Assembly: GCA_030645355.1 (NCBI GenBank)
Contig: JAUSNJ010000086.1
Location: forward strand, 1 to 64,000
Length of the DNA: 64,000 nt
Reading direction: 5' to 3'
Origin: Rhodoferax sp.
Lineage (GTDB): Bacteria; Pseudomonadota; Gammaproteobacteria; Burkholderiales; Burkholderiaceae_C
The notes under the pieces are model-generated. The model did no database searches. It saw only the letters and a list, made by a program, of their open reading frames with translations, and had not been told where the DNA came from. Position 1 is the first letter of the stretch. Every line of letters starts with the position of its first letter. Positions 31,988-53,497 of the stretch are shown here, in pieces. A program made the translations under genes and the position numbers.

Positions 31988-32086
31988 GAGGAGACCGGTG
32001 CGGGTGTTCTGCTCCGTGTCCCCCGCGACGGCCGAGGGCCGTCAGCTCCTCCTTGACCTGCGCAGAACACCCACACCGGCCTCCTC
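31988..32086 (-). repeat. R1 variable-stem hairpin element (btuD-cobO gap, copy c)
   Basis: Arms 31988-32012 and 32062-32086 are inverted copies, 25 bp, with two non-Watson-Crick positions that become G-U pairs on the minus strand. The loop contains TCAAGGAGGAGC, an inner hairpin GACGGC...GCCGTC, and GCGGGGGACACGG. The core is shared with the copies in cobU and beside prpE. Confidence 0.85.
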
Positions 32087-32158
32087 TGCGAGTAACGGGC
32101 ACGCGTAACAGACACACGGACACACAGCGCCACTGTTGGCTGACTACACCGCTGACCA

Positions 32159-32263
32159 GAGCGGGATGGCGTGGTGCTTGGCTACGCGGCATCAAGGAGG
32201 AGCAGACGGCCCTAGGCCGTCGCGGGGGATAGCCGCGTAGCCAAGTGCCATGCCAGCCCGCTC
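32159..32263 (+). repeat. R1 variable-stem hairpin element (btuD-cobO gap, copy d)
   Basis: The inner arms 32168-32189 and 32233-32254 pair fully on the plus strand with three G-U pairs; further outer complementarity reaches 32159 and 32263. The core ATCAAGGAGGAGC, an inner hairpin GACGGCC...GGCCGTC and CGGGGGA match the other copies. It is opposite in orientation to copy c. The 31937-32323 gap holds these two elements and no gene. Confidence 0.8.
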
Positions 32264-32323
32264 CCGCCAACCAGGCAGCGCATCCGGTGTCCGGTATGCG
32301 GTTTGCCCTCTCCAAGGAACTAA

Positions 32324-33133
32324 TCATCTGAAACCACCCGAGGTGCAAGGCAATGCCACCCACTGCCCATCAATGGTGTGGATGGCAATGCGTTGATCGA
32401 ACACGTCCACCAATGCCTGGTGCGTTGCCGGATCGGCACTGGCGCCGTGGTGGGTGACCCGGCCCTTCGCCATGACCACCACGCGATCGGCGTGCAGCGC
32501 CATGCTGATTTCGTGCAGCACGCTGACAATCGTGCTGCCCTGCGCCACCAGCGCCTGCACCACGGCCAGCCAGTCGGACTGGTGCGGCGGGTCCAGGTTG
32601 GCCAGCGGTTCGTCCATCAGCAGCACCTGGGCCTGCACGGCCAGTGCGCGGGCCAGCAGAACGCGCTGGCGTTCGCCGCCGGACAACTGGCCCAGCGAGC
32701 GGCAGCGCCAGTCCCACGCCTGGGTGGCGCGCAGGGCTTGCTCGACTGCGGCGTGATCGGCCGCGCTGGGCGGGGCCAACCACGCCTGGTGCGGTAGACG
32801 GCCCAGCATGGCCACGTCCCACACCGTCAGGTCATCGGCCGAGGTTTCGTTCTGGCCCAGCCAGGCCAGTTGGCGCGCCCGCACGCGGTGCGGCAGGTCG
32901 TGGATGGGATGGCCCAGCAGCGACACCGTGCCGGTGTGCGGCAGCACGCCGGCCAGCACCTTGAGCAGCGTCGACTTGCCGGCGCCGTTGGGCCCGACGA
33001 TGCTGGTCCACTGACCGGCAACCAGCCCCAGCGAGACACCGTGCAGCACGGCGGTCTTGCCCGCGCCGCTGCCCAGCGATGCGCGAACGGCGTCGGCCTG
33101 CAAGGCAATGCCGGAATGTGCAGCAGTCGTCAT
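32324..33133 (-). CDS. btuD: vitamin B12 ABC transporter ATP-binding protein
   Basis: A 269-aa FecE/BtuD-type ATPase with Walker A GPNGAGKST, signature LSGGERQRVLLARALA, Walker B VLLMDEPLANLD, and the switch His in SVLHEI. It powers the import through BtuC. The start at 33133 overlaps the btuC stop (ATGA); the longer frame to 33175 lies within btuC. It is the last gene of the btuF-btuC-btuD block. Confidence 0.92.
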   Translation of the reverse strand: MTTAAHSGIALQADAVRASLGSGAGKTAVLHGVSLGLVAGQWTSIVGPNGAGKSTLLKVLAGVLPHTGTVSLLGHPIHDLPHRVRARQLAWLGQNETSADDLTVWDVAMLGRLPHQAWLAPPSAADHAAVEQALRATQAWDWRCRSLGQLSGGERQRVLLARALAVQAQVLLMDEPLANLDPPHQSDWLAVVQALVAQGSTIVSVLHEISMALHADRVVVMAKGRVTHHGASADPATHQALVDVFDQRIAIHTIDGQWVALPCTSGGFR

Positions 33134-34206
33134 GTCGCAGCCCCCGTGCGGGCCGGGCCGCGGTGCATCAGCCACAGCAGGTAGCCACCACCCAGCACGG
33201 CGGTCAGCACGCCCACGGGCAGCTCCTGCGGCGCAATCAGTCCGCGGGCCAGGATGTCAGCGGCCAACAGCAGCACGCCACCCACCAGGCTGGCCAGCAG
33301 CATCAGGGGGCCGTGCGTGGTTTTCACGACCGAGCGCACCAGGTGGGGCGCGGCCAGGCCGACAAAGGCAATCAATCCGGTCTGCGCCACCGCCGTGCCG
33401 GTGGCCAGCGCCAGCACCGCCACCACCGCCGCGCGCATGGGCGCCACCGGCAGGCCCAGACTCAGGGCTGTTGCATCGCCCAGGCTCAGGCCGTCCAGCA
33501 CCCGCGCCAGCAGCCAGGCGGCCACCGCGCACGCCAGCCAGACCAGCGCCATCAGGCCCACGGCGGTCCAGCCGACAAAGGCGGTGGACCCCAGCATAAA
33601 GGCCTGCATGGCCTGCAGGGAATCGGGCGACAGCAGCAGCACCAGGTGCGTCATGGCGCCCAGCACCACGCCCACCACCACACCGGCCAGCAACAGCCGC
33701 AGCGTGTGGCCCACGCCGCTGGACAGCGCCAGCGTCAGCAGCACGGCCAGCACGGCACCGACGAACGCGGCCCCGGTCAGGCCCAGGCGCACCAGCAGGT
33801 TGCTGGAGAACACGCTCACCGCCACGCCGCTGTGCATCATGCTGCCACCCAGCATGCCGGCGCTACCGCCCAGCACCGCCAGCGCCAGCGCCACGCCCAG
33901 CGAGGCGCCCGCCGCGCTGCCCAGCAAATAGGGGTCGGCCAGCGGGTTGCGAAACACCCCCTGCGCCACGGCACCCGCCAGGCCCAGCAGGGCACCGGCG
34001 GCCCAGGCGCCCAGCGTGCGCGGCAGGCGGATCTCCCAGACGATTTGCCGTGCCAGGGCCGTTCCCTGCGGGTCAAGCTCAGGGCTCAGCAGCGGGCGCA
34101 GGACGTTCTCAAAGCCCACGCTGCCCACGCAAATGCCCAGCACGGCCAGGCCCAACGCGCCCAGCACGCAGGCCAACACCATCCAGGCGACGCGGCCTTG
34201 CATCAT
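33130..34206 (-). CDS. btuC: vitamin B12 ABC transporter permease (FecCD family)
   Basis: A 358-aa permease with about ten membrane helices. Family phrases are RLPRTLGAWAAGALLGLAG, GVFRNPLADPYLLGSAAGA, and the late GLIAFVGLAAPHLVR that contacts the ATPase. The ATG at 34206 overlaps the btuF stop. Placed between btuF and btuD in a riboswitch-led run, so corrinoid import is the expected task, although the family also contains siderophore permeases. Confidence 0.9.
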   Translation of the reverse strand: MMQGRVAWMVLACVLGALGLAVLGICVGSVGFENVLRPLLSPELDPQGTALARQIVWEIRLPRTLGAWAAGALLGLAGAVAQGVFRNPLADPYLLGSAAGASLGVALALAVLGGSAGMLGGSMMHSGVAVSVFSSNLLVRLGLTGAAFVGAVLAVLLTLALSSGVGHTLRLLLAGVVVGVVLGAMTHLVLLLSPDSLQAMQAFMLGSTAFVGWTAVGLMALVWLACAVAAWLLARVLDGLSLGDATALSLGLPVAPMRAAVVAVLALATGTAVAQTGLIAFVGLAAPHLVRSVVKTTHGPLMLLASLVGGVLLLAADILARGLIAPQELPVGVLTAVLGGGYLLWLMHRGPARTGAAT

Positions 34207-35126
34207 GGCCGAGCCTTGGCGGGTGCGGGATGGGCGTCCGCGTTCGGCGATTTGGTTTCAAGGCACTTGGCCATCAGGCGTGCCGCTTCGGCCATGCGTG
34301 GCCCGGGTCGCACCAGCATGTCGGCCTCATCCGACGGAAACAGGCACACGCGCTGCTCGCGCAGGGCCCGCAGGCTTTGCCAGCCGGGGCGGGTCTGCAG
34401 GCCATCGGCGCTGCGCTGACCGATCATGATGACGTCCGGGTTGGCGCGCACGATGAATTCGGGGTTGAGCTTGGGAAACGGCCCGAGCGCCGCTGGCACG
34501 ATGTTCTTGGCCCCCAGGCGGGTCAACGTCTCGCCCATGAAGGACGATTCACTGGCCGCATACGGCCCCTGATTGACCTCGAAGTACACCCGGGCGCCAC
34601 GCGCATTGGGCCCAATGGACTGGGCGGCGGCCGATACCCCGGCGTCAATCGCGCGCCAGATGCGCTGGGCATCCGGCACCTCCAGCAACTGGCCGATTTT
34701 CAGCATGACGCGCTGCACGTCGGCATGGGTCTTGGGTTCCAGCGCCACGACCTTGACGCCCAGCGCCTCCAGCCGCTCACCCACGCGCGAGGACTTGGCC
34801 ATCAGCACCACGTCGGGGCGCAGCGCCACAATGGCCTCTACATTGGGGTCCAGTCCGCCACCGACCTGGGGTAGCTTCTGCACGCTGGCCGGAAAATTGG
34901 AATAGCGATCCACCCCGACCAGGCGCGCACAATGGCCCAACTCACACACGGTCTCGGTCAGCGAGGGCAGTATGCTGACGATGCGTTGCGGCACCGCGGG
35001 CAGCGTGACGCTGACGCCCCGGTCGTCGACGATTTGAACCGCGTGCGCGGCCACACTACAGGAAAGCGCGCACACCAGACCGAACCCGGCGACAAGCCGC
35101 AGCAGCGAAATAGATTTGCAGGTCAT
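34203..35126 (-). CDS. btuF: periplasmic vitamin B12-binding protein
   Basis: A 307-aa periplasmic binding protein of the BtuF/FhuD helical-backbone class. The signal peptide ends after VAAHA (around residue 28). QRIVSILPSLTETVCELG, LVGVDRYSNFP and GGGLDPNVEAIVALRPDVVL are typical of B12-binding lipid-free receptors. The frame extends upstream through cobU, but the ATG at 35126 overlapping the cobU stop (ATGA) gives the right N-terminus and signal peptide. Confidence 0.9.
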   Translation of the reverse strand: MTCKSISLLRLVAGFGLVCALSCSVAAHAVQIVDDRGVSVTLPAVPQRIVSILPSLTETVCELGHCARLVGVDRYSNFPASVQKLPQVGGGLDPNVEAIVALRPDVVLMAKSSRVGERLEALGVKVVALEPKTHADVQRVMLKIGQLLEVPDAQRIWRAIDAGVSAAAQSIGPNARGARVYFEVNQGPYAASESSFMGETLTRLGAKNIVPAALGPFPKLNPEFIVRANPDVIMIGQRSADGLQTRPGWQSLRALREQRVCLFPSDEADMLVRPGPRMAEAARLMAKCLETKSPNADAHPAPAKARP

Positions 35127-35821
35127 ACCGTATCTTTCAAAACCAGCGGTAAACCCGCCGCCATCAGGGTCACACGCTTGCAGGTTGCGGCCACGTCCTG
35201 GTTCAGGCGCCCCAACGCGTCGACAAAGGCGCGCACCTCGCGTCCCATGGGGATCACACCCAGACCGATCTCGTTGCCGACCAGCACCACCGGACCGGGT
35301 GCGGCGGCAATTGCTCCTAAAAGCATAGCTGTCTGAGCTTTTTCCACGGGGGCTGGCGGCCTGTGCGGCTGGACATTTTGCTCCGTGTCCCCCGCCCGCT
35401 GCGCGGGCTCCTCCTTGACCTGCGCAAAATGCCCAACCGCACAGGCCTCCGTGGGCGTGCCGTGATCTCGGACAACCGGCATGCGCAGGTTGGTTAGCCA
35501 CAGGGTGAGGCAGTCCACGACCACTAGCGTGTCATGCCGGCTGTGCTGGGCCAGGGCTTCTGCCAAAGCCAAAGGTTCTTCCACCGTGGCCATGCCGGGC
35601 ACACGTTGCGCCCGGTCGACCTGGTGGCGTTGGATGCGTTCGCGCATCTCATCATCCCAGGGCTGGCCGGTGGCGATCAGCACGGCGCGGTGTGCGTCCG
35701 ACTGGTCCAGCCAGACCCGGGCCAGCGCCTCGGCGCGGCGCGACTTGCCGCTCTTCTGGCCGCCCAGAATCAGCTCGCTGCGGGCCAGCGTCAAAGGCTT
35801 GGGATTCATCGCCGTATTCAT
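35123..35821 (-). CDS. cobU: adenosylcobinamide kinase/guanylyltransferase with repeat-encoded insert
   Basis: A 232-aa bifunctional enzyme that phosphorylates adenosylcobinamide and transfers GMP to it. Visible marks are the P-loop GGQKSGKS, VDCLTLWLTNL, and VLVGNEIGLGVIPMGREVR. Family members are about 180-190 aa; the excess is an insert of about 45-50 residues between NLRMPV and LLGAIAAAPG, encoded by an R1 element and an R3 element side by side (35314-35451). The frame remains open. The start at 35821 overlaps the upstream stop by ATGA; a second ATG lies at 35809. Confidence 0.88.
   Translation of the reverse strand: MNTAMNPKPLTLARSELILGGQKSGKSRRAEALARVWLDQSDAHRAVLIATGQPWDDEMRERIQRHQVDRAQRVPGMATVEEPLALAEALAQHSRHDTLVVVDCLTLWLTNLRMPVVRDHGTPTEACAVGHFAQVKEEPAQRAGDTEQNVQPHRPPAPVEKAQTAMLLGAIAAAPGPVVLVGNEIGLGVIPMGREVRAFVDALGRLNQDVAATCKRVTLMAAGLPLVLKDTV
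35314..35361 (-). repeat. R3 repeat inside cobU
   Basis: A 48-bp diverged R3 copy abutting the R1 element. On the minus strand it has GCCCCCGTGGAAAAAGCTC and AGCTATGC, in the same reading frame as the copies in cbiB and pgeF. Confidence 0.6.
35354..35451 (-). repeat. R1 variable-stem hairpin element inside cobU (copy b)
   Basis: Arms 35360-35381 and 35424-35445 (22 bp, extendable to 28) pair on the minus strand with two G-U pairs. The core GGTCAAGGAGGAGC, an inner hairpin CCCGC-GCAG-CGGGC and GGGGGACACGGAGC are nearly identical to the copy at 53398-53497, although the arms are unrelated. The gene is read through it on the core strand. Confidence 0.88.
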
Positions 35822-36657
35822 TCTGTAAGTGCTCCCGCCAGATCTGCATCCATCCACCGCAGGATGATGGCGTGCATCTTGGCCACGCCGTCGGTCAGAG
35901 CCGCCGGGCCGGGTTGCAGGATGTCGGGGGATTTGATTTCAAACAACTGGGCGTGGCGTACGGCGTTCACTGCACCCCAGCCTTCGCGTGCCGCGACGTT
36001 CTCGGCACGGAATTTCTTGCCGCACCACGAGCCCAGAATGATGTCCGGGTTGCGCCGAGCTATCTCCGCACCATCGGCAATGATGCGGTTCTTGCCCAGA
36101 GACTCACCCGCCAGCTCGGGGAAGCAGTCATCGCCCCCGGCAATTGCCAGCAGCTCGGAGACCCAGCGGATGGCGCTGATATGGGGCGTGTCCCACTCTT
36201 CAAAAAAAACCTTGGGTCGGCGCGCACCGGCGGCCACGCGCACCGCCACCGCCGCTTGCATGGCCTGCAGTTCGGCCTGCATCTTCTCAATGCGTTGCAG
36301 GCCTTGCCCGGCTTCACCGACCATGGCCGCGACCTGGTACAGCATGGAAAAAATCTCCGCCACGCTGCGCTGGTTGAAGATGGTGACCTGCACGCCACGG
36401 CGCACCAACTCGGCGGCGATGTCGGCCTGCAGGTCGGAAAAGCCCAGCACGCAGTCGGGCTGCAGGTCCATGATCTTGTCGATCTTGGCACTCAGAAAGG
36501 CACTGACCCTGGGCTTTTCGTCGCGCGCGCGCTTGGGCCGCACGGTGTAGCCCGAGATACCGACGATGCGTTCTTCCTGGCCGAGCAGGTACAACCACTC
36601 CGTCGTCTCCTCCGTCAGGCAGACGATACGCTGGGGACCGTGCGGAAAGTCAAGCAC
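35818..36657 (-). CDS. cobalamin-binding-type substrate-binding protein lacking a signal peptide
   Basis: A 279-aa protein of the BtuF-like fold: PQRIVCLTEETTEWLYLLG, RIVGISGYTVRP, DLQPDCVLGFSDLQADIAAEL, and the late RRNPDIILGSWCGKKF. Unlike the BtuF protein 0.7 kb away it has no export signal, because translation starts at a GTG directly after the btuB stop codon. It may therefore act in the cytoplasm, or a start upstream is missing. It overlaps cobU by ATGA. A related group of stand-alone cobalamin-binding proteins is known in proteobacteria; its role is uncertain. Confidence 0.75.
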   Translation of the reverse strand: MLDFPHGPQRIVCLTEETTEWLYLLGQEERIVGISGYTVRPKRARDEKPRVSAFLSAKIDKIMDLQPDCVLGFSDLQADIAAELVRRGVQVTIFNQRSVAEIFSMLYQVAAMVGEAGQGLQRIEKMQAELQAMQAAVAVRVAAGARRPKVFFEEWDTPHISAIRWVSELLAIAGGDDCFPELAGESLGKNRIIADGAEIARRNPDIILGSWCGKKFRAENVAAREGWGAVNAVRHAQLFEIKSPDILQPGPAALTDGVAKMHAIILRWMDADLAGALTE

Positions 36658-38535
36658 CTACATCGTCCAGTTCACGGACACAAACGCATTGCGACCCGGC
36701 ATGGAGAATCCATTGGCCAGGTTGTACTGCGCGTCCGTCAGGTTGTTGATGCGCGCCAGCAGTGCAACATGTTTCTGCAGCTTCCAGTTGACACCCAGGT
36801 TCATCAGGGTGTAGCCGGGCAACAGGTCGCGCCCGGTGAAGGTCAGGTTGTTGTCCTCGCGGTCGCCGGACACCTTGAGCTCGCCAAACACATTGAAGCT
36901 ACCCAATTGGTAGGTGACCCGAGCATTGAAGACGTTGCGCGCAATGCGCACCAGGCGCAGGTCGTTGGAAGCCGGGCTGGTCGAGTAGGACCGGGGATCG
37001 GCGTAGTCGTAGGACAGACTGTAAGTCGTGTCGCCCGCCTGCACATCGCCCGTCAGCGTGACGCCACGCAGCACCGCCAGGGAACTCTGCACATTGGTGG
37101 TCGGGATGATGAATCCCTGGATGTCGTTGTGGTAGACCACGGCGCCCATGGACACATCGCCCGAGCGGTACTTCAGCCCCAGCTCGGTGGCGCGGTTCTT
37201 CTGGGGCACCAGGGCCGTATTGCCAAAGCCGGGGTAGTAGAGTTGGTTGAAGCTTGGCGCCTGGAAACTGGTGCCCAGGCTGGCCACGGCGCGCAGGCTG
37301 TCGGTCATGCGGTAACCGCCCGACACCGCCCAGTTGTTGAAGTTGCCAAACTGCGAGTTCTCGTCATTGCGGGCCACCAGCAGCGCGTTCCACAGCGGGC
37401 GGTTCAGCGCGTACGACGCCAACGCGCTGCGCACGTCGCGGCTGGTCACGGTGTAGGCGGTGGAGCTGTCCACGGTTTCATTGCGGCTCTCGAGCATCAG
37501 GGACAGGATGTCCTTGTCCAGCGTGATGTCGTTCTGCCAGGTGGCCTGGCGGCGGCTGGTGTTGAACTGGGTGGTGCCGCCGTTGGCACCGTCGGTGGTG
37601 CGGAAATAGTCACCCAGTGATTGCTCGTTGCTGGCGCCGGCCGTCAGCGTGGAATGCCACTGCGGCAGCCACTGCGCGTCCCACTGCAGGGTCGCGTGGC
37701 CCAGGCCGGTCTTGCCGCGGGCGTCGGATGTCAGGCGGTTCAGGCCCAGCGGATTGGGAAAAGGTGTGGAGTCAAACCGGTAGCTGGTGTCGCTGCGCAA
37801 CAGACTCAGGCGCAGGCCATGCGCACGGTTGATGTGTGCCGACAGGCGGAAATCTGCGCTGCTGGCGTCGAACCCGTCCTCGTCGGCGTTGTAGCTGCCA
37901 GAGGCGGGATTGGAAACCGCGCTGATGCCCGACGCCTTCTCGCGCGCGACGCCAAAGCTGTAGCCCATCACACCGCTGCTGCCACTCAAGTGGGCGCCGG
38001 CTTGCTGTTGACCATCGGAGCCAAGGCCCGCACTGGCGCCCAGCTCCAGTGCCTGGCTGGCCTCGCGGGTGAAGATCTGGATCACGCCGCCCACCGCATC
38101 CGGGCCATACAGAGCGGACGCCGCACCGCGCAAAATTTCAATGCGCTCGATGCGTGACAGCGGCAGATTCTCCAGTGAGCCGCCACCCGATGTGGCCGAG
38201 CCGACGCGCACGCCGTCGATCAGCACCAGGGTCTGGGATGTGACCGCGCCCCGCAAGAACAGGCTGGTCGTGGAACGGTAACTACCGCTGCTGGCGATCT
38301 GGACGCCGGGCAACTGGGCCAGAAGGTCGCGGACCGAGGACTGGCCAGCCAGCTCCAGCGTGGCGCGGTCGATCACGGACACATCGGCCAGCACGTCGGT
38401 CACCGGGGTGGCCACACGGGAAGCGGTGACGATTTTTTCAGGGAGTTGCAGTTGCGATTGGGCGTGGGCCGACAAAGCGGCGCCCAAGGCCACGGACAGC
38501 GTAGCAAAGCGCGCACGGGTAGTGCAGTTTTTCAT
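36658..38535 (-). CDS. btuB: TonB-dependent outer-membrane cobalamin receptor
   Basis: A 625-aa outer-membrane barrel protein with a signal peptide ending after ALSAHA. A TonB-box region (EKIVTASRVATPV) precedes the plug domain (SVRDLLAQLPGVQI, LVLIDGVRVGSATSGG, IEILRGAASALYGPDAVGGV). The C-terminal barrel strands end in VSVNWTM with the usual aromatic-rich last strand. The start is the ATG at 38535; the longer frame to 38682 runs through the riboswitch. A cobalamin riboswitch just upstream supports B12 or cobinamide as the substrate. Confidence 0.93.
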   Translation of the reverse strand: MKNCTTRARFATLSVALGAALSAHAQSQLQLPEKIVTASRVATPVTDVLADVSVIDRATLELAGQSSVRDLLAQLPGVQIASSGSYRSTTSLFLRGAVTSQTLVLIDGVRVGSATSGGGSLENLPLSRIERIEILRGAASALYGPDAVGGVIQIFTREASQALELGASAGLGSDGQQQAGAHLSGSSGVMGYSFGVAREKASGISAVSNPASGSYNADEDGFDASSADFRLSAHINRAHGLRLSLLRSDTSYRFDSTPFPNPLGLNRLTSDARGKTGLGHATLQWDAQWLPQWHSTLTAGASNEQSLGDYFRTTDGANGGTTQFNTSRRQATWQNDITLDKDILSLMLESRNETVDSSTAYTVTSRDVRSALASYALNRPLWNALLVARNDENSQFGNFNNWAVSGGYRMTDSLRAVASLGTSFQAPSFNQLYYPGFGNTALVPQKNRATELGLKYRSGDVSMGAVVYHNDIQGFIIPTTNVQSSLAVLRGVTLTGDVQAGDTTYSLSYDYADPRSYSTSPASNDLRLVRIARNVFNARVTYQLGSFNVFGELKVSGDREDNNLTFTGRDLLPGYTLMNLGVNWKLQKHVALLARINNLTDAQYNLANGFSMPGRNAFVSVNWTM

Positions 38536-38614
38536 AGAGAGGAGACCATCAACAAAAAGCCCTCGCCGTCTTCCCCGACAGCGCATGGGCATCACGGATG
38601 CACGACTGGCGTGC

Positions 38615-38840
38615 AACCACCGTGTTGGCCGGTATCCGGGCTGGTGGAGCAACTCCCATCGCCTTCCCACACGCTTGTTCAAGGCGTCCAGTGGCTGTTG
38701 ATGGGAGCGGAATCGCGAAACGATTCGTCCACTTACCGTTGCGGGGGCAGCGCAGGTTAGGCGAGTGCTGTGACCAGCTTGCCCTCCTGCTTCCCGTTGA
38801 ACTGCTGCGTGTGAACCACGCCGCGAGAACCAACGCAGGA
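38615..38840 (-). promoter_or_regulatory. cobalamin riboswitch upstream of btuB
   Basis: On the minus strand the leader contains the conserved blocks GCTGCCCCCGCAACGGTAAG (around 38726-38745), GCCACTGG, GTGGGAAGGC and CCAGCCCGGATACCGGCC, in the correct order for the AdoCbl aptamer. A GC-rich hairpin (about 38593-38624, arms CACGG-GCAC/GTGC-CCGTG) follows before the btuB ATG and may be the expression platform. High cobalamin should reduce btuB and the downstream run. Exact ends are approximate. Confidence 0.88.
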
Positions 38841-38884
38841 ATTTTACGTCAAGTTCCTTGCCCTAACCCTACAATGTGCAGTCT

Positions 38885-39109
38885 ATGGCGAACCAGAACC
38901 ACATCGACCAAATTGCCGAGCGCGTTGAGCGCCTGCTGGTGCGTTACGGTGAGTTGCAGCGCACCAATGTGCTGCTCACCCAGCAGGTAGAAACGCTGAC
39001 CCAGGAGCGGGACTCCCTGAAGTCGCGCCTGAACGCGGCGCGCTCCCGGGTGGATGCATTGCTTGAACGACTTCCGGATGCGCCTGCCGTGCAAAAAGAC
39101 CCATCATGA
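38885..39109 (+). CDS. small coiled-coil protein of the ZapB-like / TIGR02449 type
   Basis: A 74-aa protein that is almost entirely a heptad-patterned coiled coil (IAERVERLLVRYGELQ, then VETLTQERDSLKSRL). Genes of this kind sit directly before zapA in betaproteobacteria, where a cell-division role is supposed. A -10 like TACAAT at 38870-38875 would start transcription within a few bases of the ATG, so the mRNA may be nearly leaderless. The stop overlaps zapA by ATGA. Confidence 0.8.
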   Translation: MANQNHIDQIAERVERLLVRYGELQRTNVLLTQQVETLTQERDSLKSRLNAARSRVDALLERLPDAPAVQKDPS

Positions 39110-39471: not shown

Positions 39472-39497
39472 TCCGTCTGGCCCGGCAACGTTGGGCC

Positions 39498-39503: not shown

Positions 39504-39510
39504 CAACACC

Positions 39511-39682: not shown

Positions 39683-39711
39683 ACCCTCCACGCCCCTCTC
39701 CACACCGCGCA

Positions 39712-46148: not shown

Positions 46149-46184
46149 TTTTTCTCTTCCTTCAGTGGGTCAAAATAAGAATGA

Positions 46185-47906
46185 TCAGGCCTTGGCCTTG
46201 ACGTAGCTGCCAGGGGCCGGCTGCGTGGCCTTGTACTTGCCTTTGCCATAGGTCTTGGGTGCAGCAATCTGCTTTCCGGCGTGGCTCTTGAGCCAGGCTG
46301 CCCAGTCGGTCCACCAACTGCCGGGGTACTCGGTGGCGCCTTCGAGCCAGGCGGCTTGCGTCTTGGGCAGCTTGCCATCGGCGCGAATCCAGTGGCTGCG
46401 TTTTTTCTTCTCGGGCGGGTTGATCACACCGGCAATGTGTCCGGAGGCGCCCATGACAAAGCGCTTCTTGCCCGGCAACACCTGCGTGGAGGCATAGGCA
46501 CCGCCGATGGGCACGATATGGTCTTCACGCGAGCCGTAGATGTAAACCGGCATGTCAACCTTGTTCAGGTCAACCTTCTCGCCACAAACCGTGGCTTTGC
46601 CTGGTTTGACCAAGTTGTTTTCTAGATAGGTGTTGCGCAAGTACCAGGCGTAGTAAGGGCCAGGCAGGTTGGTGCTGTCAGAGTTCCAGTACAGCAGGTC
46701 GAACGGCGGCGGGGTTTCGCCCTTGAGGTAGTTGCCCACCACGTAGTTCCAGACCAGGTCGTTGGGGCGCAAGAAGCTGAAGGTGCTGGCTAGGTCCTGG
46801 CCCTTCATCAGACCGCCCTTGCCCATTTCCTTTTCGCGGTACTGCACGAACGCTTCGTCAATGAAGACGTCCAGAATGCCGGTGTCGGTGAAGTCCAACA
46901 GGCTGGTCAAAAACGTGGCACTGGCCACAGGCTTCTCGCCGCGCGCGGCCAGCACGGCCAGCGCCGTGCCCAGCATGGTTCCGCCGACACAGAAGCCCAA
47001 TGCGTTGATGGTCGGCGAGCCGGAAATCTCGCGGGTCACGGCAATGGCCTTGATGACGGCCTGCTCAATGTAGTCGTCCCAGGTAGCCGTGGCCATGGAT
47101 GCATCGGGGTTGCGCCAGCTCACGACAAAGGTGCGGTGCCCCTGCGCCACGGCGTAGCGCACCAGCGAGTTTTCGGGCTGCAAGTCCAGAATGTAGAACT
47201 TGTTGATGCAGGGCGGCACCAGCAGGAAGGGCTTTTCATAGACCTTGGCAGTCAGCGGCTTGTATTCGATCAGCTGGAAAAATGCGTTCTCGAACACCAC
47301 GGCGCCTTCGGTGGTGGCCACATTCTTGCCGACCTCGAACAGGCTTTCGTCCGTCATGGATACGTGGCCCTGGCGCAGGTCGTGCACCAGGTTTTGCATG
47401 CCCTTGGCGATGCTCTCGCCCTTGGTTTCAATGGCTTTCTTCTGCGCCTCGGCATTGAAGGCCAGGAAATTGCTGGGGGCGGCGGCGGCCATCCACTGCT
47501 CGACGGCAAAACGGATGCGGCTGCGCGTCTTGGCATCCGCCTCCACGGCATCGGCCAGGCCCATCATGGTGCGGGCATTGAGCAGGTAAACCGCAGCCGA
47601 ATACGCCGCCACCGGGTTGCTGCCCCAGGCCTCGCCTGAAAAACGCTTGTCGGCCGTGCTGGGGGCGGAAAACCCGTGGCTGAACATGCCCACGGCGTCC
47701 TGCAGATACTGCTGTTGCAGGGCCTGCAACTTGTCAGGCGCAAAACGAATGTCAGGCTGTTTGGCGCCAACGCCCGGAAGGCTGCCACCAATGGCGCCCA
47801 AGTCCATACCCTGGAACGACTGCACCGCCTTACTCCAGTTTTCTGTCATGGACTGCTGAAACTGCTGAGAGGCCTGGGTCCAGAATTCGGGAGCGTTTTG
47901 CGTCAC
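46185..47906 (-). CDS. phaC: class I poly(3-hydroxyalkanoate) synthase
   Basis: A 573-aa granule-associated polymerase of the usual class I length. The lipase-like box GFCVGGT carries the nucleophile Cys306. VSWRNPDASMATATWDDY, VYIYGSREDHIVP with the catalytic Asp/His region, and GHIAGVINPP complete the family picture. It starts with GTG (47906), preceded by AAGGTGAC. It heads the PHB operon and is divergent from a small membrane-protein gene. Confidence 0.95.
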   Translation of the reverse strand: MTQNAPEFWTQASQQFQQSMTENWSKAVQSFQGMDLGAIGGSLPGVGAKQPDIRFAPDKLQALQQQYLQDAVGMFSHGFSAPSTADKRFSGEAWGSNPVAAYSAAVYLLNARTMMGLADAVEADAKTRSRIRFAVEQWMAAAAPSNFLAFNAEAQKKAIETKGESIAKGMQNLVHDLRQGHVSMTDESLFEVGKNVATTEGAVVFENAFFQLIEYKPLTAKVYEKPFLLVPPCINKFYILDLQPENSLVRYAVAQGHRTFVVSWRNPDASMATATWDDYIEQAVIKAIAVTREISGSPTINALGFCVGGTMLGTALAVLAARGEKPVASATFLTSLLDFTDTGILDVFIDEAFVQYREKEMGKGGLMKGQDLASTFSFLRPNDLVWNYVVGNYLKGETPPPFDLLYWNSDSTNLPGPYYAWYLRNTYLENNLVKPGKATVCGEKVDLNKVDMPVYIYGSREDHIVPIGGAYASTQVLPGKKRFVMGASGHIAGVINPPEKKKRSHWIRADGKLPKTQAAWLEGATEYPGSWWTDWAAWLKSHAGKQIAAPKTYGKGKYKATQPAPGSYVKAKA

Positions 47907-48002
47907 ACTGTCACCTTTTCAATCGTTGGTCTTCGAGTAGGCCCTAGTATCTCAGCATACGCCCTACGATTCCCTGACATGTGGTAAATACCTCGTGACC
48001 CT

Positions 48003-48275
48003 ATGTACATCATTCCCATAGCCTGGCTGTATGTGGCCGTCATGATGAGCGTGGCCGAAGCCACCGCCACCAACGGCTCCCTGCTCGGGGCCATCATCAC
48101 ACTGGTCCTGTATGGCCTGCTGCCTGTGGGGCTGATCCTGTACTTCATGGGAGCGCCCGGGCGCAAGCGCGCCATCCGGGCCCGCGAGGCGGCTGAGCTG
48201 CACGCCTCACACCCTCCAGATGCAGGCGGCCTGGCGCCCACTGACGCGGTCCCGCCGGTGGGAAAAGAACCGTAG
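48003..48275 (+). CDS. small two-helix membrane protein
   Basis: A 90-aa protein with hydrophobic helices at about residues 2-19 and 28-48, then a basic, proline-rich tail. No function is known to me; short proteins of this build are common and conserved in Burkholderiales. The 3' end overlaps the convergent pgeF gene by 69 bases, which may mean its true stop or expression deserves a check. It diverges from phaC across a 96-base spacer. Confidence 0.65.
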   Translation: MYIIPIAWLYVAVMMSVAEATATNGSLLGAIITLVLYGLLPVGLILYFMGAPGRKRAIRAREAAELHASHPPDAGGLAPTDAVPPVGKEP

Positions 48276-49004
48276 CGGATTGCCAACAGTGCACCAGGGC
48301 GGGCTGCCGTCGTTGCCAAATACCTGCATGATGCCCAACTGCGACAGGCGCTGGCGCGCCAGCGCCGGCAAGTCCGCCAACCACTTGTCACCGGGCAGCG
48401 GCAGGAAGCATTCCGAAGCCTGGGGCGAGACACGGACGAACGCATCCCGCACATCTGCGCCCACCTCAAATGCCTGCGGTCCAATGCAAGGTCCCAGCCA
48501 CGCTATCAATTCAATAGCTGATTGTTCATATTCCACGAGGGCTGGAGGCCTGAATCGTTCAACGGCTCGTTCCACTACGCCGATGCCAGCCACGCCCGCC
48601 AGCCCGCGCCATCCGGCGTGCACCGCCGCCACCTGGGTGCCCTGCGTATCGCACAACAGAAGGGGCAGACAGTCAGCCACCATGATGGTGCAGGCCAGGC
48701 CGCTCGCCCGCGTGCAGGCGCCATCGGCCTGCGCACCATCGAAAGTGTCCGGCGCCAGTTCCAGTATCTCGGAGCCATGGACCTGGTTCAGAAACACCGG
48801 ACGGACCGCCAGGGTCTGTTGCAGGATGGCGCGGTTGCGCTGCACGTGCGCCGCACCATCGCCTACATGTGAACCCAGATTCAGACTGTCATAGGGCGCA
48901 GCCGAGACGCCGCCGACACGCGTGGTGCACAGTGCGCGCACATTTGCCGGTGCGGGCCAATCGGGTATCAGGCAATCGGCCGGATCAAGTGGGGGACGGG
49001 TCAT
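48207..49004 (-). CDS. pgeF: polyphenol oxidase / laccase-domain protein (peptidoglycan editing factor)
   Basis: A 265-aa protein of the YfiH family. The metal-site residues are His76 in NQVHGSE, Cys112 in VADCLPLLL and His129 in AVHAGWRG. The family corrects wrongly built peptidoglycan precursors and shows phenol or purine activity in vitro. Residues ~153-168 (PPALVEYEQSAIELIA) are encoded by an R3 repeat in frame, between VERAVERF and WLGPCIG, in a region that is a short connection in relatives. Confidence 0.88.
   Translation of the reverse strand: MTRPPLDPADCLIPDWPAPANVRALCTTRVGGVSAAPYDSLNLGSHVGDGAAHVQRNRAILQQTLAVRPVFLNQVHGSEILELAPDTFDGAQADGACTRASGLACTIMVADCLPLLLCDTQGTQVAAVHAGWRGLAGVAGIGVVERAVERFRPPALVEYEQSAIELIAWLGPCIGPQAFEVGADVRDAFVRVSPQASECFLPLPGDKWLADLPALARQRLSQLGIMQVFGNDGSPPWCTVGNPLRFFSHRRDRVSGRQAACIWRV
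48503..48550 (-). repeat. R3 repeat inside pgeF
   Basis: A 48-bp element with CTATCAATTCAATAGCTG and CCACGAGGGCTGGAGGCC on the plus strand. In frame with the host gene and in the same frame as the cbiB copies. Confidence 0.75.
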
Positions 49005-49078
49005 GCAAACAAGGATAAACCAAGCCCGTTACCATTGATCCCTGTACCGACCCCTCACCCGCCCTGGAGCTCCACACC

Positions 49079-49381
49079 ATGATTCTCGAACTCGCTGACA
49101 TCCGCATCCACCCCGGCCAGAACGCCGCCTTTGAAGAAGGCATCCAGCGTGGTCTGGCCACCGTCATCGGCAGTGCCAAAGGCTTTCAGGGCTACAAGGT
49201 CAACCGCGGCATCGAGAGCACCGAGCGCTACATCCTGCAGATTTTCTGGGACACGCTGGAAGACCACACCGTGGGTTTTCGCCAGTCCGATGCCTTCACC
49301 CAATGGCGCGCCATTGTGGGTCCGTTCTTTGCCGGCCCACCGGTAGTCGAGCACTTTGACCTGGTCGCCAAATCCGCCTGA
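49079..49381 (+). CDS. antibiotic biosynthesis monooxygenase (ABM) domain protein
   Basis: A 100-aa single-domain protein with the ferredoxin-like ABM pattern: ADIRIHPGQNAAFEEGI at the start, GFQGYKVNRGIE in the middle, and FWDTLEDHTVGFRQSDAF, ending with VVEHFDLVA. Small ABM proteins are quinol or haem monooxygenases or have unknown roles. CTGGAGC lies just before the ATG. It is 17 bases upstream of the FAH-family gene, so the pair may be co-transcribed. Confidence 0.8.
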   Translation: MILELADIRIHPGQNAAFEEGIQRGLATVIGSAKGFQGYKVNRGIESTERYILQIFWDTLEDHTVGFRQSDAFTQWRAIVGPFFAGPPVVEHFDLVAKSA

Positions 49382-49398
49382 CTGAAAAGGAAAGCACC

Positions 49399-50094
49399 AT
49401 GTCCTACGTCTTCGCCCCCGCAGCCCCCGTCTGCGTGCCCGTTGTCGGCCAGGCCCCGCGCTTCCCGGTGCATCGCATCTACTGCGTCGGTCGCAATTAC
49501 GTCGACCACGCGCTGGAGATGGGCGGCACCGGCCGCGAGGCGCCGTTCTTCTTCATGAAACCCGCCGATGCCGTGCTGGTGGCCGAGCCCGGCCAGACCG
49601 TGGCCATGCCCTACCCCAGCCTCACCCACAACCTGCACCACGAGATCGAGCTGGTCGTGGCCATCGGTGTGGGGGGTACCAACATCCGAGCCGCCGAGGC
49701 AGCCAAGCACATTTATGGCTACGCCGTGGGCCTGGACATGACGCGGCGCGACCTGCAAAACGACATGAAAAAGCAGGGCCGTCCCTGGAGTATTGGCAAA
49801 GGTTTTGACAACTCTGCCCCCATAGGCGCCATCACCCCGGCGGCACAGGTGCCGGACATCACCAGCGCCGCCATCCACCTGCAGGTCAATGGCCAGGACC
49901 GCCAGCGCAGCACGGTTGCCAAGCTGATCTGGAACATTGCGGAAACCATTGAGCAACTGTCCGCCGCCTGGACGTTGCAGCCGGGCGACCTGATCTTCAC
50001 CGGCACCCCCGAAGGAGTAGGCGCCGTGGTGCGGGGCGACACACTGGTGGGTGGCATTGACGGGCTGCAGACGATCCAGGTTCGCGTGGAGTAA
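49399..50094 (+). CDS. fumarylacetoacetate hydrolase family protein (fumarylpyruvate hydrolase-like)
   Basis: A 231-aa FAH-superfamily hydrolase. Metal ligands lie in the HHEIELVVAIG segment, with IYCVGRNYVDHALEMG at the N-terminus and FTGTPEGVGAVVRGD near the C-terminus, the usual C-C bond hydrolase signatures. The size and N-terminal region fit the fumarylpyruvate or acylpyruvate hydrolase subgroup. The exact substrate is not shown. It is followed five bases later by the thioesterase-like gene. Confidence 0.88.
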   Translation: MSYVFAPAAPVCVPVVGQAPRFPVHRIYCVGRNYVDHALEMGGTGREAPFFFMKPADAVLVAEPGQTVAMPYPSLTHNLHHEIELVVAIGVGGTNIRAAEAAKHIYGYAVGLDMTRRDLQNDMKKQGRPWSIGKGFDNSAPIGAITPAAQVPDITSAAIHLQVNGQDRQRSTVAKLIWNIAETIEQLSAAWTLQPGDLIFTGTPEGVGAVVRGDTLVGGIDGLQTIQVRVE

Positions 50095-50099
50095 TACCC

Positions 50100-50906
50100 G
50101 TGCATTCCCACGCCAGCTCCGCCTATGTGCAGCGCCCGGATGGCCGCTACCAGTCCACGCCGCTGACGCGCGGCCCCTGGAACCCCGAGCACCAGCACGC
50201 CGGCCCGCCTATAGCCCTGGTCTGCCGGGCCTTTGAGGCCGCGGCGCGCGAACACGGCCTGACACATATTGCCCGCCTCACCGCCAACCTACTGCGGCCC
50301 ATTCCTCTCAGCGATCTGGACATCCAGGTCGCCACGGTCTATGCCGGACGCAACGCGGCGCACTTTTCCGCCACGCTGGTGGCCAACGGCAAGGAAGTCG
50401 GCGTCTTCACCGCCCTGGTCCAGCGCGAGAATGCGTTGGTGCTGCCCGAGGGTCTGGCAGGTCACCCGCTGCCGGTAATGCCGCTGCCGCCAGAAGACGC
50501 ACCGGTGGTGAGCTTTCCGTTCGCCGGACGCCATGTCGGCTATGCGGAATTGGTCGAAACCCGTGCCGCGCGCGGTCACATTTTTGACGGCCCCTGCGCC
50601 ATCTGGTTTCGCCTGCACCACCCCCTGGTGGCCGGCGAGACGCCCAGCCCCTTCCAGCGCGTGGCCGTGGCCGCCGACTCAGGCAACGGCATCAGCGCGG
50701 TGCTGGACTACCAGCGTTTCAGCTTCGTCAATTCCGACCTCACCATCAACCTGCTGCGCGCGCCCGTGGGCGAATGGGTGTGCCTGGACGCACGCACCTG
50801 GCTGGGTGCCAATGGCTGCGGCCTGGCCGAATCGGCACTGTACGACCAGCAGGGGCTGATAGGCCGTGCGACACAAAGCCTGTCGGTGCGCCCGCTGTCA
50901 CCCTGA
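50100..50906 (+). CDS. acyl-CoA thioesterase-like double hot-dog protein
   Basis: A 268-aa protein resembling the TesB-like/4HBT_3 family. The N-terminal half has GPWNPEHQHAGPPIALVCRA and LTANLLRPIPLSDLDI, typical of the first hot-dog; the C-terminal half has NSDLTINLLRAPVGEWVCLD and GLAESALYDQQGLIG of the second. Expected to hydrolyse acyl-CoA thioesters; chain-length preference unknown. It starts at GTG 50100, five bases after the FAH gene. Confidence 0.82.
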   Translation: MHSHASSAYVQRPDGRYQSTPLTRGPWNPEHQHAGPPIALVCRAFEAAAREHGLTHIARLTANLLRPIPLSDLDIQVATVYAGRNAAHFSATLVANGKEVGVFTALVQRENALVLPEGLAGHPLPVMPLPPEDAPVVSFPFAGRHVGYAELVETRAARGHIFDGPCAIWFRLHHPLVAGETPSPFQRVAVAADSGNGISAVLDYQRFSFVNSDLTINLLRAPVGEWVCLDARTWLGANGCGLAESALYDQQGLIGRATQSLSVRPLSP

Positions 50907-50986
50907 GCCCGGGTTCGTGGAATACTACGCAGGCTTTTCCTCCCAACCAACCAGCCACCCATCCTTCCCTACCGAAGACGTTCGCC

Positions 50987-51505
50987 ATGATCAAACTCAG
51001 CATCCCCCTTGCCGCCGCCCTGCTGTTGGGCGCCTGTGCCTCCACTGCGCCCAGTGGCCCGTCCGCAACCGCGCGACTGGTGGCCACCACGGGCAACGCC
51101 GTCACCGGCGATGTGCGCTTTGCGCGCCAGGGCGCGGCAGTGCTGGTCTCCGGCACTGTGCGGGGGCTGGCACCCAACACCGAGCATGGCTTTCACATCC
51201 ACGACAAGGGTGACTGCTCCAGCGGCGACGGCATGAGCACCGGCGGGCACTTCAACCCGCTGGCAAAGAGCCACGGCGCCCACGACCATAGCGAACACCA
51301 CGCCGGCGACCTGGTCAGCCTGAAGGCCGACACCTATGGCGTGGCCACCTTCAGCTACACCAGCAGCACCATCATGGTCGGTGAAGGTGCAACCGACGTC
51401 ATCGGCCGCGGCCTGATCGTCCACCGCGACGCCGACGATTTCAAGACCCAGCCCACCGGCAACTCGGGCCCCCGCATGGCCTGCGCGGTCATTGCCAAGG
51501 ATTGA
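50987..51505 (+). CDS. sodC: Cu-Zn superoxide dismutase, lipoprotein
   Basis: A 172-aa periplasmic SodC. The signal peptide ends in a lipobox (LLGAC), so it is probably anchored to a membrane. Copper and zinc ligands are visible in HGFHIHDKGDC, GGHFNP, HDHSEHHAGDL and HRDADDF, and the second disulfide Cys is in MACAVI. The longer frame upstream overlaps the thioesterase gene; the ATG at 50987 gives the proper lipoprotein start. Confidence 0.92.
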   Translation: MIKLSIPLAAALLLGACASTAPSGPSATARLVATTGNAVTGDVRFARQGAAVLVSGTVRGLAPNTEHGFHIHDKGDCSSGDGMSTGGHFNPLAKSHGAHDHSEHHAGDLVSLKADTYGVATFSYTSSTIMVGEGATDVIGRGLIVHRDADDFKTQPTGNSGPRMACAVIAKD

Positions 51506-51525
51506 CCTGGTTTTCTGACACTCCA

Positions 51526-52071
51526 ATGCTGCGCAGCCCCATCAAACATTGCAAACAATGCGGCACCGCCGTGGTCTACCGCCTGCCCGACGATGGCGAC
51601 ACCAAGGAGCGCGCGGTCTGCGTGAGCTGCAACACGGTTCACTACGAAAACCCGCTCAACGTGGTGGGAACCGTGCCCCACTGGGGCGACAAGGTGCTGC
51701 TGTGCAAGCGCAACATCGAGCCGCGCTGGGGGAAATGGACGTTGCCGGCCGGTTTTATGGAGCTGGGCGAGACCACGGCGCAGGGTGCCGCGCGCGAGAC
51801 CGATGAGGAAGCCGGAGCGGAGTTCGAGATGCAGGAGCTGCTCACGCTGATTAATGTGCCGCGGGTCGGCCAGGTTCACCTGTTTTACCGGGCGCGCCTG
51901 ATCCATGACCGCTTCAACCCCGGCACCGAGACCATAGAAGCCCGTTTGTTTGCCGAGGATGAAATCCCCTGGGACGAGATAGCCTTCCGCACCGTCAAGG
52001 AGACGCTGGAGCGCTACTTTGCCGACCGGCGCGCGGGCCACTATGGTTTTCACATCGTCGACATTGTCTGA
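51526..52071 (+). CDS. Nudix hydrolase with N-terminal zinc ribbon
   Basis: A 181-aa protein. The first 40 residues hold a zinc ribbon (CKQCG and CVSC). The Nudix box is complete: G-x5-E-x7-RE-x2-EE-x-G within GFMELGETTAQGAARETDEE and the following AG. The layout matches the NADH pyrophosphatase-like or ADP-ribose-like Nudix group; the substrate is not known. A TTG at 51502 would overlap sodC, but the ATG at 51526 fits better. Confidence 0.88.
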   Translation: MLRSPIKHCKQCGTAVVYRLPDDGDTKERAVCVSCNTVHYENPLNVVGTVPHWGDKVLLCKRNIEPRWGKWTLPAGFMELGETTAQGAARETDEEAGAEFEMQELLTLINVPRVGQVHLFYRARLIHDRFNPGTETIEARLFAEDEIPWDEIAFRTVKETLERYFADRRAGHYGFHIVDIV

Positions 52072-52093
52072 CCGCCCCTTGCACGCCAGCCCC

Positions 52094-52693
52094 ATGGCAA
52101 CGACCCCTTCTACCAACGACAACCCCAACGCGCTGACCGACGCCGTACTGGCGCTGGTGTTGCAGGTGCCGGACAGCAACGAGCCAGTGGGCCAACACCC
52201 GGCCGAGCGCGCACACGCCATTGCGCGCAGCGCGGCGCGCACCGCCAGCCTGGTATCGGGCTCGCTGTCTCTGCCACCGGGCTTTCTGGGCTGGCTGACC
52301 GTGCTGCCCGAACTGGTGGGTGTGTGGAAGCTGCAGGCGCAAATGGTGTCCGACATCGCTGCGGTCTACGGCCAGCGCAAGACCCTGGGCCGCGAACAGA
52401 TGCTGTACTGCCTGTTCAAACATGTGTCCGCCCAGTTGTTGCGCGATGTCGTCGTGCGGGTCGGTGAACGGGTGGTGGTGCAACAGACCTCGCTCAAGGT
52501 GCTGCAGAACATCGCCCAGCAAATTGGCGTGCAGGTGTCCAAGGCAGTGCTGAGCAAGGGGGCGGCACGCTTTGTGCCGCTGCTGGGCGCGGTGGGCGTG
52601 GGGGCCTATGCCTATTACGACACGCTGCAGGTCGCCAAGACCGCAGTGGAACTGTTTGAGCGCGCCAGCATCATTGATGAAACAACCTCCTAG
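52094..52693 (+). CDS. EcsC-like protein
   Basis: A 199-aa protein resembling the C-terminal part of EcsC-family proteins: GFLGWLTVLPELVGVWKLQAQ, DIAAVYGQRKTLGREQ, and a Gly/Ala-rich hydrophobic end (PLLGAVGVGAYAYYD). The role is unknown; EcsC homologues are associated with membranes. The assignment rests on a few phrases. Start at the ATG at 52094; the longer frame overlaps the Nudix gene. An R3 repeat begins at its last codons and reaches tdk. Confidence 0.6.
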   Translation: MATTPSTNDNPNALTDAVLALVLQVPDSNEPVGQHPAERAHAIARSAARTASLVSGSLSLPPGFLGWLTVLPELVGVWKLQAQMVSDIAAVYGQRKTLGREQMLYCLFKHVSAQLLRDVVVRVGERVVVQQTSLKVLQNIAQQIGVQVSKAVLSKGAARFVPLLGAVGVGAYAYYDTLQVAKTAVELFERASIIDETTS

Positions 52694-52733
52694 CCCTCAT
52701 GAAATAAGCGCATTGCGCTACTCAATCCATAGC
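52686..52733 (-). repeat. R3 repeat between the EcsC-like gene and tdk
   Basis: Non-coding R3 copy: AGCCCTCATGAAATAAGCGC then CGCTACTCAATCCATAG on the plus strand, with an internal GCGC-ATTG-CGC hairpin. This form looks closest to a full-length element. Confidence 0.7.
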
Positions 52734-52737
52734 AAGC

Positions 52738-53304
52738 ATGGCCAAACTCTTCTTCCGCTACTCGGCCATGAATGCCGGCAAATCCACGGCGCTACTGCAA
52801 ATCGCCTACAACTACGAAGAACAGGGCCAGCGTGTGCGGTTGTACACCGCGGCCATTGATGACCGCAGCGGCCTGGGCTGCATTGCCTCGCGCCTGGGGC
52901 TGCAACGCCAGGCCGGCGTGTTCGAAGCCGATACGGACTTCTTTGCGCAACTTGTCGATGAAAAAAGCCTGGCCTGCGTGCTGATCGATGAAGCGCAGTT
53001 TCTGTCACCCGCGCAGGTACGCCAGTTGCACCGCCTGTCCAATGTGTGCAACCTGCCGGTCATCTGCTTCGGTCTGCGCTCGGACTTCCAGGGCAATGCC
53101 TTCCCCGGCGCGGCGCACCTGTTGACCCTGGCCGACGATATCGAGGAGATCAAGACAATTTGCGCCTGCGGCCGCAAGGCCACGATGAACATCCGCATGG
53201 ATGACGACGGCCGGCGCGTACACGCCGGGGAGCAAGTGGAGATAGGCGGCAACAACCGCTACCAGCAGGTCTGCGCTCGTTGCTTCTACCAGGGCGAGAA
53301 CTAA
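52738..53304 (+). CDS. tdk: thymidine kinase
   Basis: A 188-aa type II thymidine kinase for nucleoside salvage. The P-loop is in SAMNAGKST (residues 9-17), the catalytic glutamate in LIDEAQF, and zinc-lasso cysteines in CACGRKA and CARCFY. FGLRSDFQGNAFPGA is the lid region typical of the family. It ends in TAA directly before an R2 and then an R1 element. Confidence 0.95.
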   Translation: MAKLFFRYSAMNAGKSTALLQIAYNYEEQGQRVRLYTAAIDDRSGLGCIASRLGLQRQAGVFEADTDFFAQLVDEKSLACVLIDEAQFLSPAQVRQLHRLSNVCNLPVICFGLRSDFQGNAFPGAAHLLTLADDIEEIKTICACGRKATMNIRMDDDGRRVHAGEQVEIGGNNRYQQVCARCFYQGEN

Positions 53305-53390
53305 ACCCCCACGCTAGTCGCTTCGCGTACTGCGCTGCCCCCCAAGGGGGCTAAGTCGCCTTGGGGCGGCCCGGCGGCGACTTGTCGCCG
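53305..53390 (+). repeat. R2 hairpin repeat downstream of tdk
   Basis: Begins with CCCCCACGCT two bases after the tdk stop. It then has CCCCCCAAGGGGGC and the conserved loop TTGGGGCGGCCCGGC closed by an 8-bp stem AAGTCGCC/GGCGACTT. The stem differs from the 40531-40631 copy but pairs equally well. Confidence 0.85.
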
Positions 53391-53397
53391 GCGTGGC

Positions 53398-53497
53398 CTA
53401 AGCGGCTGGGCGCCGAAGCGTTCTGCGCAGGTCAAGGAGGAGCCCGCGCAGCGGGCGGGGGACACGGAGCAGAACGCTTCGGCGCCCAACCGCTTAG
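53398..53497 (+). repeat. R1 variable-stem hairpin element between tdk and prpE (copy a)
   Basis: Arms 53398-53426 and 53469-53497 are 29-bp inverted repeats with one mismatch. The core GGTCAAGGAGGAGCCCGC, the inner hairpin CCCGC-GCAG-CGGGC and GGGGGACACGGAGC equal those of the cobU copy. It ends one base before the prpE stop codon, so it may also serve as a 3' end structure. Confidence 0.9.

Follow-up and report, generated by a model that had tools for sequence, protein, structure and literature searches.

A dispersed hairpin repeat of Comamonadaceae with covarying stems and strand-specific pairing, present between genes and in frame within them

There are four copies of a long hairpin with a conserved core in the window analysed here, a stretch of 64,000 nucleotides from Rhodoferax sp. 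(contig JAUSNJ010000086.1), and they belong to a repeat that is dispersed among Comamonadaceae and some other Burkholderiales. The repeat is patchily distributed, its stems exhibit covariation, its pairing is specific to one strand, and it is found in frame within genes at sites that are empty in relatives. The explanation we favour, to which we assign a probability of roughly 0.55, is a dispersed, non-autonomous palindromic mobile element whose presence in translated sequence is tolerated. Our best reading by analogy is that it would work like REPINs and Rickettsia palindromic elements, and this does not imply membership in either group.

Hairpin architecture and covariation

The basic hairpin is ~100 bp long and has an outer stem of 20-30 bp. 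Progressing inwards from this stem, the model includes G.A (61 of 68 copies), a covarying pair, A.G (68 of 68), a G-C pair, a bulged A, GTC/GAC, an asymmetric 8x4 internal loop composed of AAGGAGGA and GGGG, and finally a variable inner hairpin. Column information extends for ~33 nt on the upstream side of the core and ~36 nt on its downstream side, and therefore the type-A form of the element measures ~100 bp. The 3' arm is followed by AGCG in 40 of 125 type-A copies, compared with 10.7% of background windows. There is no consensus for a GTAG-type tetranucleotide 5' of the palindrome in these 125 copies, and the columns that precede the arms carry little information.

Covariation was evaluated on alignment A1, for which 68 divergent copies were chosen from the 115 whose core is 31 nt long. 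Selection began with the best-paired copies and applied a cutoff of 85% arm identity, so that the set is biased towards good pairing. For the 36 drawn pairs, pairing is realised in 90.6% of cells versus 69.9% after shuffling, and changes on both sides are found at 29 of them. The covariation score is 0.551, against 0.147 for shuffled alignments and 0.128 for the best slide, and none of 500 shuffles was as high on any measure. Thus, the covarying stems that an earlier note had proposed from the four copies of the window are evident in a wider alignment, where the note had named a lack of significant covariation as grounds for giving up its proposal.

Two other parts of that description need to be softened. 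The note had reported a core shared by all four copies, and an internal-loop core is indeed largely conserved, but it is less fixed than those copies implied: TAAAGGAGGAGC takes its place in 20 of the 39 copies read in the copy-rich genome G306, and likewise in the displayed units of family f13. The collection of 216 copies used below was gathered by an exact core pattern, and therefore core identity in that set exists by construction. The note had also called the outer arms unrelated in sequence yet self-complementary. Their pairing stands, but 'unrelated' is too strong, as a relationship is still discernible among many arms in G306 (GGAG..CTGGGCGGCAG), whose divergence has been accompanied by compensation.

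Distribution

The pattern TCAAGGAGGAGC-N(4,30)-GGGGGA occurs 28 times in the genome to which the window belongs, and its reversed form is absent there; a covariance model recovers 49 copies. A further copy in this genome, scoring 97.0 bits, lies past the window end on contig C72 (75063-75150, +). Of 299 genomes of the family, 36 contain the exact pattern, at most 28 times each (the reversed control has 3 matches in total). Among 61 congeners, 49 have at least one model copy, 29 have at least 10, and 12 have none; the latter include genomes listed as 99% complete (G287, G302). There are at least 124 model matches in G306 and at least 71 in G368, and counts in the highest-copy genomes are lower bounds because the best 72 candidates were scored per congener and the best 150 for the G306 count.

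A slightly wider pattern is found in 12 of 349 genomes of the order, comprising four of family f1, seven of the ten sampled from f13 and one of f21, and its reversed control matched once. In a collection of named genomes there are at least 113 stretches with the element, and titles among the matches listed include Rhodoferax, Curvibacter, Ramlibacter, Polaromonas, Hydrogenophaga, Comamonas, Comamonadaceae, Burkholderiales and unspecified (beta)proteobacteria. Carriage by viruses, plasmids or phages was considered and rejected: there are no matches to the exact pattern in viral contigs, and a blastn search of plasmids and phages with one copy of 108 bases found nothing. No description of the element was found in the open-licence literature by core sequence, peptide or topic.

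Copies within genes

There are 43 copies within predicted genes among the 216, of which 39 are sense and 4 antisense, and they represent 23 gene sites, with gene contexts taken from our own simple gene finder rather than from annotation. At 18 of the 23 sites, including the CobU gene of the window, only one of the six frames is used, and it reads ..AQVKEEPAxRAGDTEQ... Two of the other sites are of mixed orientation between species, two have antisense copies only, and one is sense in a different frame. The core length is 1 mod 3 in all 39 sense copies within genes, compared with 61 of 84 intergenic type-A cores. In intergenic copies the antisense frames are open in 52 of 60 and 56 of 60 cases and the chosen frame in 36 of 60. 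Stop codons therefore do not explain the choice of frame, which falls on one that is less often open than those in antisense. To judge from the sequences, the preferred frame looks like a reflection of selection on the peptide. Translational bypass or excision of these copies would be expected to require neither the fixed frame nor the core length of 1 mod 3 that the copies exhibit, and this possibility was set aside.

All 16 host proteins that were checked match a Pfam family. Hosts identified in this way include CobU, FemAB-like, XdhC, MutL, Mpl, GNAT, DsbA, ThiG, an AraC-type regulator, CobB/CbiA-like, PutA, an HrpA-like helicase, MutS, a DNA methylase and MurD. In CobU, two anchors are 252 nt apart with the insert and 150-174 nt apart in the 14 insert-free relatives displayed; the insert lies in a variable loop and conserved kinase positions are retained. 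The corresponding spacing in Mpl is 93 nt in 14 relatives with an empty site and 177-195 nt in nine with the element. These occupied and empty spacings indicate insertion of the whole hairpin.

There are three gene sites at which orientation differs between species, namely Mpl and the two mixed sites noted above. In the Mpl gene of G301 (L262), one of the nine with the element, the core is inverted relative to its relatives, and the antisense frame is open there because its usual in-frame stop is absent. Such differences fit either inversion between the arms or repeated insertion. On a tree of Mpl from 29 of 30 loci (G328 has no anchor), at least four changes are needed for the state 'occupied', and both a single insertion and several insertions are compatible with this result.

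The Mpl genes of G315, G304, G311 and G308 (L264-L267) carry shorter, core-free inserts, with 129-153 nt between anchors versus 93 when empty. These are possibly remnants of the element.

Which strand folds

The earlier note had observed that seven of eight non-Watson-Crick positions in the inner arms were G-U, and this bias is borne out at scale. Read on the AAGGAGGA strand, 20 arm positions in the 216 copies include 317 G-T and 39 A-C. The ratio of G-T to A-C is 105:10 between tandem genes in sense orientation, 62:9 between tandem genes in antisense orientation, 51:6 between convergent genes and 12:3 between divergent genes; inside genes it is 54:6 for sense and 6:0 for antisense copies. Previously unused material from family f13 and G020 gives 21:4 and 12:3, respectively. 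The ratio is 48:4 in G306, which partly overlaps the earlier set, and 46:1 in G064, which is already within the 216.

The same preference is visible when orthologous copies are compared (23 site groups). There are 42 single changes between Watson-Crick and wobble pairs versus 6 between Watson-Crick and A-C (p 1e-7, assuming that both classes are equally likely). The wobble class is fed alike by A/G changes (18) and C/T changes (24), and therefore deamination of C on one strand was rejected as its sole cause. Double changes number 12 versus 5.2 expected, and 9 of these are still paired, in an analysis that set aside 44 of 106 pairs whose best register differed. Membership in a site group requires that both flanks match (39 groups), and a few groups may mix different insertions at one spacer.

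These comparisons bear on whether the repeat is simply a structured RNA family, either a small RNA or a cis-acting element of messenger RNA, encoded on the AAGGAGGA strand. Covariation and tolerance of G-T (that is, G-U) are what such an RNA would exhibit, and copies within genes are mostly sense (39 of 43). In such an RNA, AAGGAGGA could be a target of the CsrA/RsmE or anti-Shine-Dalgarno type. However, pairing and wobble bias are equally strong in copies antisense to both neighbours, and therefore the transcript of a host gene is not the folding molecule. The sense bias within genes accompanies a fixed reading frame and is thus explained by the peptide, and intergenic copies occur in all gene arrangements, so that contexts are mixed. 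Rfam 15 yields only a cobalamin riboswitch in the window at gathering score, with no family over the copies, and six element loci compared at E values up to 1 gave four microRNA matches, all below gathering score. Membership in an Rfam family was rejected on these grounds, in agreement with the earlier note, which had named no described class of this form. We consider a structured RNA family doubtful. The note had left a choice between a functional RNA and a protein-bound DNA hairpin; RNA is not supported over the DNA hairpin, as the antisense copies are equally biased. Resident copies are thus still under constraint to fold on the AAGGAGGA strand, which fits single-stranded DNA or a transcript of the element's own, and not the messenger of the host gene.

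Persistent pairing also bears on the idea that the copies are inert selfish debris, of the kind of Rickettsia palindromic elements, that decay once inserted. In-frame insertion in many conserved genes and a patchy distribution would suit debris, as would the short non-matching inserts of Mpl if these are remnants. However, orthologous resident copies keep their pairing, as indicated by the wobble bias and the compensated double changes, and Rickettsia elements are said in the available portion of one source (PMC6649704) to lose repeat identity with time. Inert debris is therefore very unlikely. A further idea is that arm complementarity arises by mutational self-correction, through template switching between arms, rather than by selection. 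This process is described in the same partial source as a known maker of perfect inverted repeats (PMC6649704), and it would account for compensation without any function. However, such a process has no cause to eliminate A-C yet spare G-T on a single strand, whichever way the copy lies in the genome, and one-strand deamination does not by itself fill this gap, given that both A/G and C/T changes feed G-T. We find this idea hardly credible.

Twin units and the search for a trans factor

In the fetched loci, 48 pairs of neighbouring copies are separated by less than 330 bp, and 47 of them are divergent (left -, right +). The remaining pair is a reverse arrangement inside a chain, and there are no pairs of the same orientation; orthologous sites were taken singly in this count by sequence and not by ancestry. 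Twin units of two hairpins, ~300-350 bp long, are found in family f13 and in G020, and many copies are single.

Such pairs resemble BIMEs or doublets of repetitive extragenic palindromic (REP) sequences, and they raise the possibility of a REP/REPIN/BIME family mobilised by a resident Y1 transposase (RAYT/TnpA-REP). The hairpin is strand-specific and has conserved mismatches, compensatory changes are reported for REPs and REPINs in the accessible parts of two papers (PMC8266576, PMC3116915, the latter for REPINs), and 54 of 61 congeners carry a Y1 gene. However, with an E cutoff of 1 the model has no match in any of 56 Y1 loci fetched together with ~1.5 kb on each side. The presence of Y1 does not follow copy number either: it is found in 25 of 30 genomes with at least 8 copies and in 29 of 31 with fewer (Fisher p 0.26). 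Ten of 12 element-free congeners carry Y1, and 5 of the 30 copy-rich congeners lack it, several of these genomes being incomplete. There is no Y1 match in G020, which is listed as 100% complete and has 10 copies, or in the window genome, which is 88% complete.

The conserved part of the hairpin is also its tip and not a GTAG-type foot, and copies are found inside genes. Thus, an association with RAYT/Y1 is not supported and a REP family of this kind is unlikely; the case that the earlier note had named against itself, a REP family explained by a transposase, is unsupported when tested against Y1/RAYT genes.

A single Y1 transposase-like gene adjoins a gltB-like gene in most genomes of loci L213-L222, which span several genera, whether or not a hairpin is present. 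This is a conserved chromosomal RAYT-like gene.

A possible mechanism and its difficulties

For a mobile element, the following scheme could apply. The AAGGAGGA strand would fold, probably as single-stranded DNA, and a putative protein would recognise its irregular core, in the way that the bulge of REP hairpins is read by TnpA-REP. New sites would receive copies of entire hairpins or twin units. Between genes, insertions would be tolerated in either orientation, and within genes they would survive mainly in the frame that yields the hydrophilic peptide AQVKEEPAxRAGDTEQ and at positions within a loop or linker. Pressure to keep pairing would persist on resident copies after insertion.

Several observations weigh against this scheme. 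No trans factor was found, and no transposase was recognised near the copies in the 25 largest clusters of 1062 predicted proteins. No movement was seen and no target-site duplication was established, near-identical recent copies not having been sought systematically. A directional mechanism of 3' duplication or copying is unsupported, since only 4 of 210 copies have their 3' part repeated in tandem and none of 210 the 5' part (controls, 1 and 2), which is too weak a signal. The element may have its own promoter and transcript. Finally, pairing that is kept at resident sites is unexpected for a purely selfish DNA substrate, which argues for a host-level or continuing role. A quite possible reading is that a formerly mobile hairpin now provides genome-wide folded-strand recognition sites that are still read by a host protein or by a transcript of the element's own. 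Each resident copy would be kept paired on its own strand in both orientations, and copies in genes would at the same time be kept readable as a harmless peptide.

The end of the 3' arm is repeated in tandem downstream in some copies of G064 (L179, L181, L190, L191), an arrangement that is rare over all copies.

The four copies of the window and their surroundings

Four exact TCAAGGAGGAGC cores are present in the window and there are no other exact matches (Table 1), while 11 matches with at most two mismatches are found versus 4.94 expected. Each copy is predicted to form a long hairpin, with z scores between -3.50 and -8.77 when both strands of the four regions are considered and none of 200 shuffles as stable in each, and the covariance model matches all four at 46.1-101.4 bits. 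The alignment behind the model includes copies 3 and 4 (loci L013, L014) and excludes copies 1 and 2. Thus, the four copies and their folding are as the earlier note had described. Two features go beyond that description: the repeat also invades genes while keeping their reading frame, and copies 1 and 2 together make up a single divergent twin unit. A cobalamin riboswitch (RF00174, 71.4 bits) is located at 38610-38849 (-), and the surrounding vitamin B12 gene region includes CobO, CobU and two periplasmic binding proteins.

Table 1. Hairpin copies in the window and adjacent genes
Feature	Position	Strand	Exact TCAAGGAGGAGC core	Model placement	Remarks
Hairpin copy 1	31988..32086	-	32045-32056	31990-32084	38-nt core region; left half of twin unit; 74.6 bits
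Hairpin copy 2	32159..32263	+	32192-32203	32165-32257	variant in which ATC..GAT replaces GTC..GAC; right half of twin unit; 46.1 bits
Twin unit (copies 1 and 2)	31988..32263	.			two divergent hairpins, AAGGAGGA strands outward; cores 135-139 bp apart (row L011)
Hairpin copy 3	35354..35451	-	35407-35418	35359-35446	in frame within CobU; 31-nt core; codes ..GHFAQVKEEPAQRAGDTEQN..; 101.4 bits
CobU gene (adenosylcobinamide kinase)	35123..35821	-			PF02283, E 3.7e-44; 232 aa; in-frame insert in variable loop
Hairpin copy 4	53398..53497	+		53404-53491	98.8 bits; flanked by thymidine kinase and acetyl-CoA synthetase genes
Core TCAAGGAGGAGC of copy 4	53432..53443	+	53432-53443		5' half of 8x4 internal loop AAGGAGGA / GGGG
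CobO gene	31367-31936	-			neighbour of copy 1
ABC-transporter gene	32324-33133	-			other neighbour of copy 1
Thymidine kinase gene	52738-53304	+			neighbour of copy 4
Acetyl-CoA synthetase gene	53499-55391	-			other neighbour of copy 4

Relation to known repeats

The closest parallels are Rickettsia palindromic elements and Wolbachia palindromes, which are described in the available portions of two papers (PMC2229807, PMC10969869) as ~100-150 bp long, intergenic as well as in frame in conserved protein genes, and encoding a peptide within the repeat. The element described here is likewise a palindrome found between genes and in frame within them (43 of 216 copies, 23 sites). It differs in lineage, apparently in sequence, in its single preferred frame and peptide, and in its divergent twin units. 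Its strand-specific covariation is also kept at resident sites, unlike the loss of repeat identity mentioned above for Rickettsia (PMC6649704, in part).

Dispersed hairpins, divergent pairs (47 of 48), conserved stem irregularities and strand-specific folding are shared with REP, BIME and REPIN sequences. Unlike those with a RAYT, the element has a conserved tip instead of a foot, no GTAG-type tetranucleotide upstream, and arms of 20-30 bp. REP and REPIN sequences are also almost wholly extragenic and lie next to a cognate RAYT, whereas about a fifth of the copies collected here are in genes and no associated Y1 was found. Miniature inverted-repeat transposable elements (ERIC, Correia/NEMIS and YPAL, reviewed in the accessible part of PMC2229807) are similarly short, non-autonomous and structured, some with open reading frames, but unlike them the element has no terminal repeat sequence common to unlike copies, and the sequence of its arms varies between copies. 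The mitochondria of Nematomorpha have coding palindromes that, as far as the partial text of PMC6649704 describes them, are also long hairpins kept within coding sequence; their repeats are close to perfect and have no connection with a dispersed, core-sharing family.

Implications

Protein-coding palindromes are reported, in the available portions of PMC2229807 and PMC10969869, as a peculiarity of Rickettsia and Wolbachia. The repeat described here is an apparently similar but far better preserved system of free-living Betaproteobacteria, in which orthologous sites, both occupied and empty, are numerous. Comparison of these sites can address questions that are open for Rickettsia, namely whether the fold matters after insertion, which strand acts and whether the peptide is chosen. 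As answered to date, the fold does matter, the element's own strand is the one that acts, and there is a preference for one frame. In practice, CobU, MutL, MutS, Mpl, PutA and HrpA carry inserts of 28-34 residues in some species, which annotation may misread. Should resident copies indeed serve as recognition sites, one repeat would be selected simultaneously for its fold, in DNA or RNA, and for its coding sequence.

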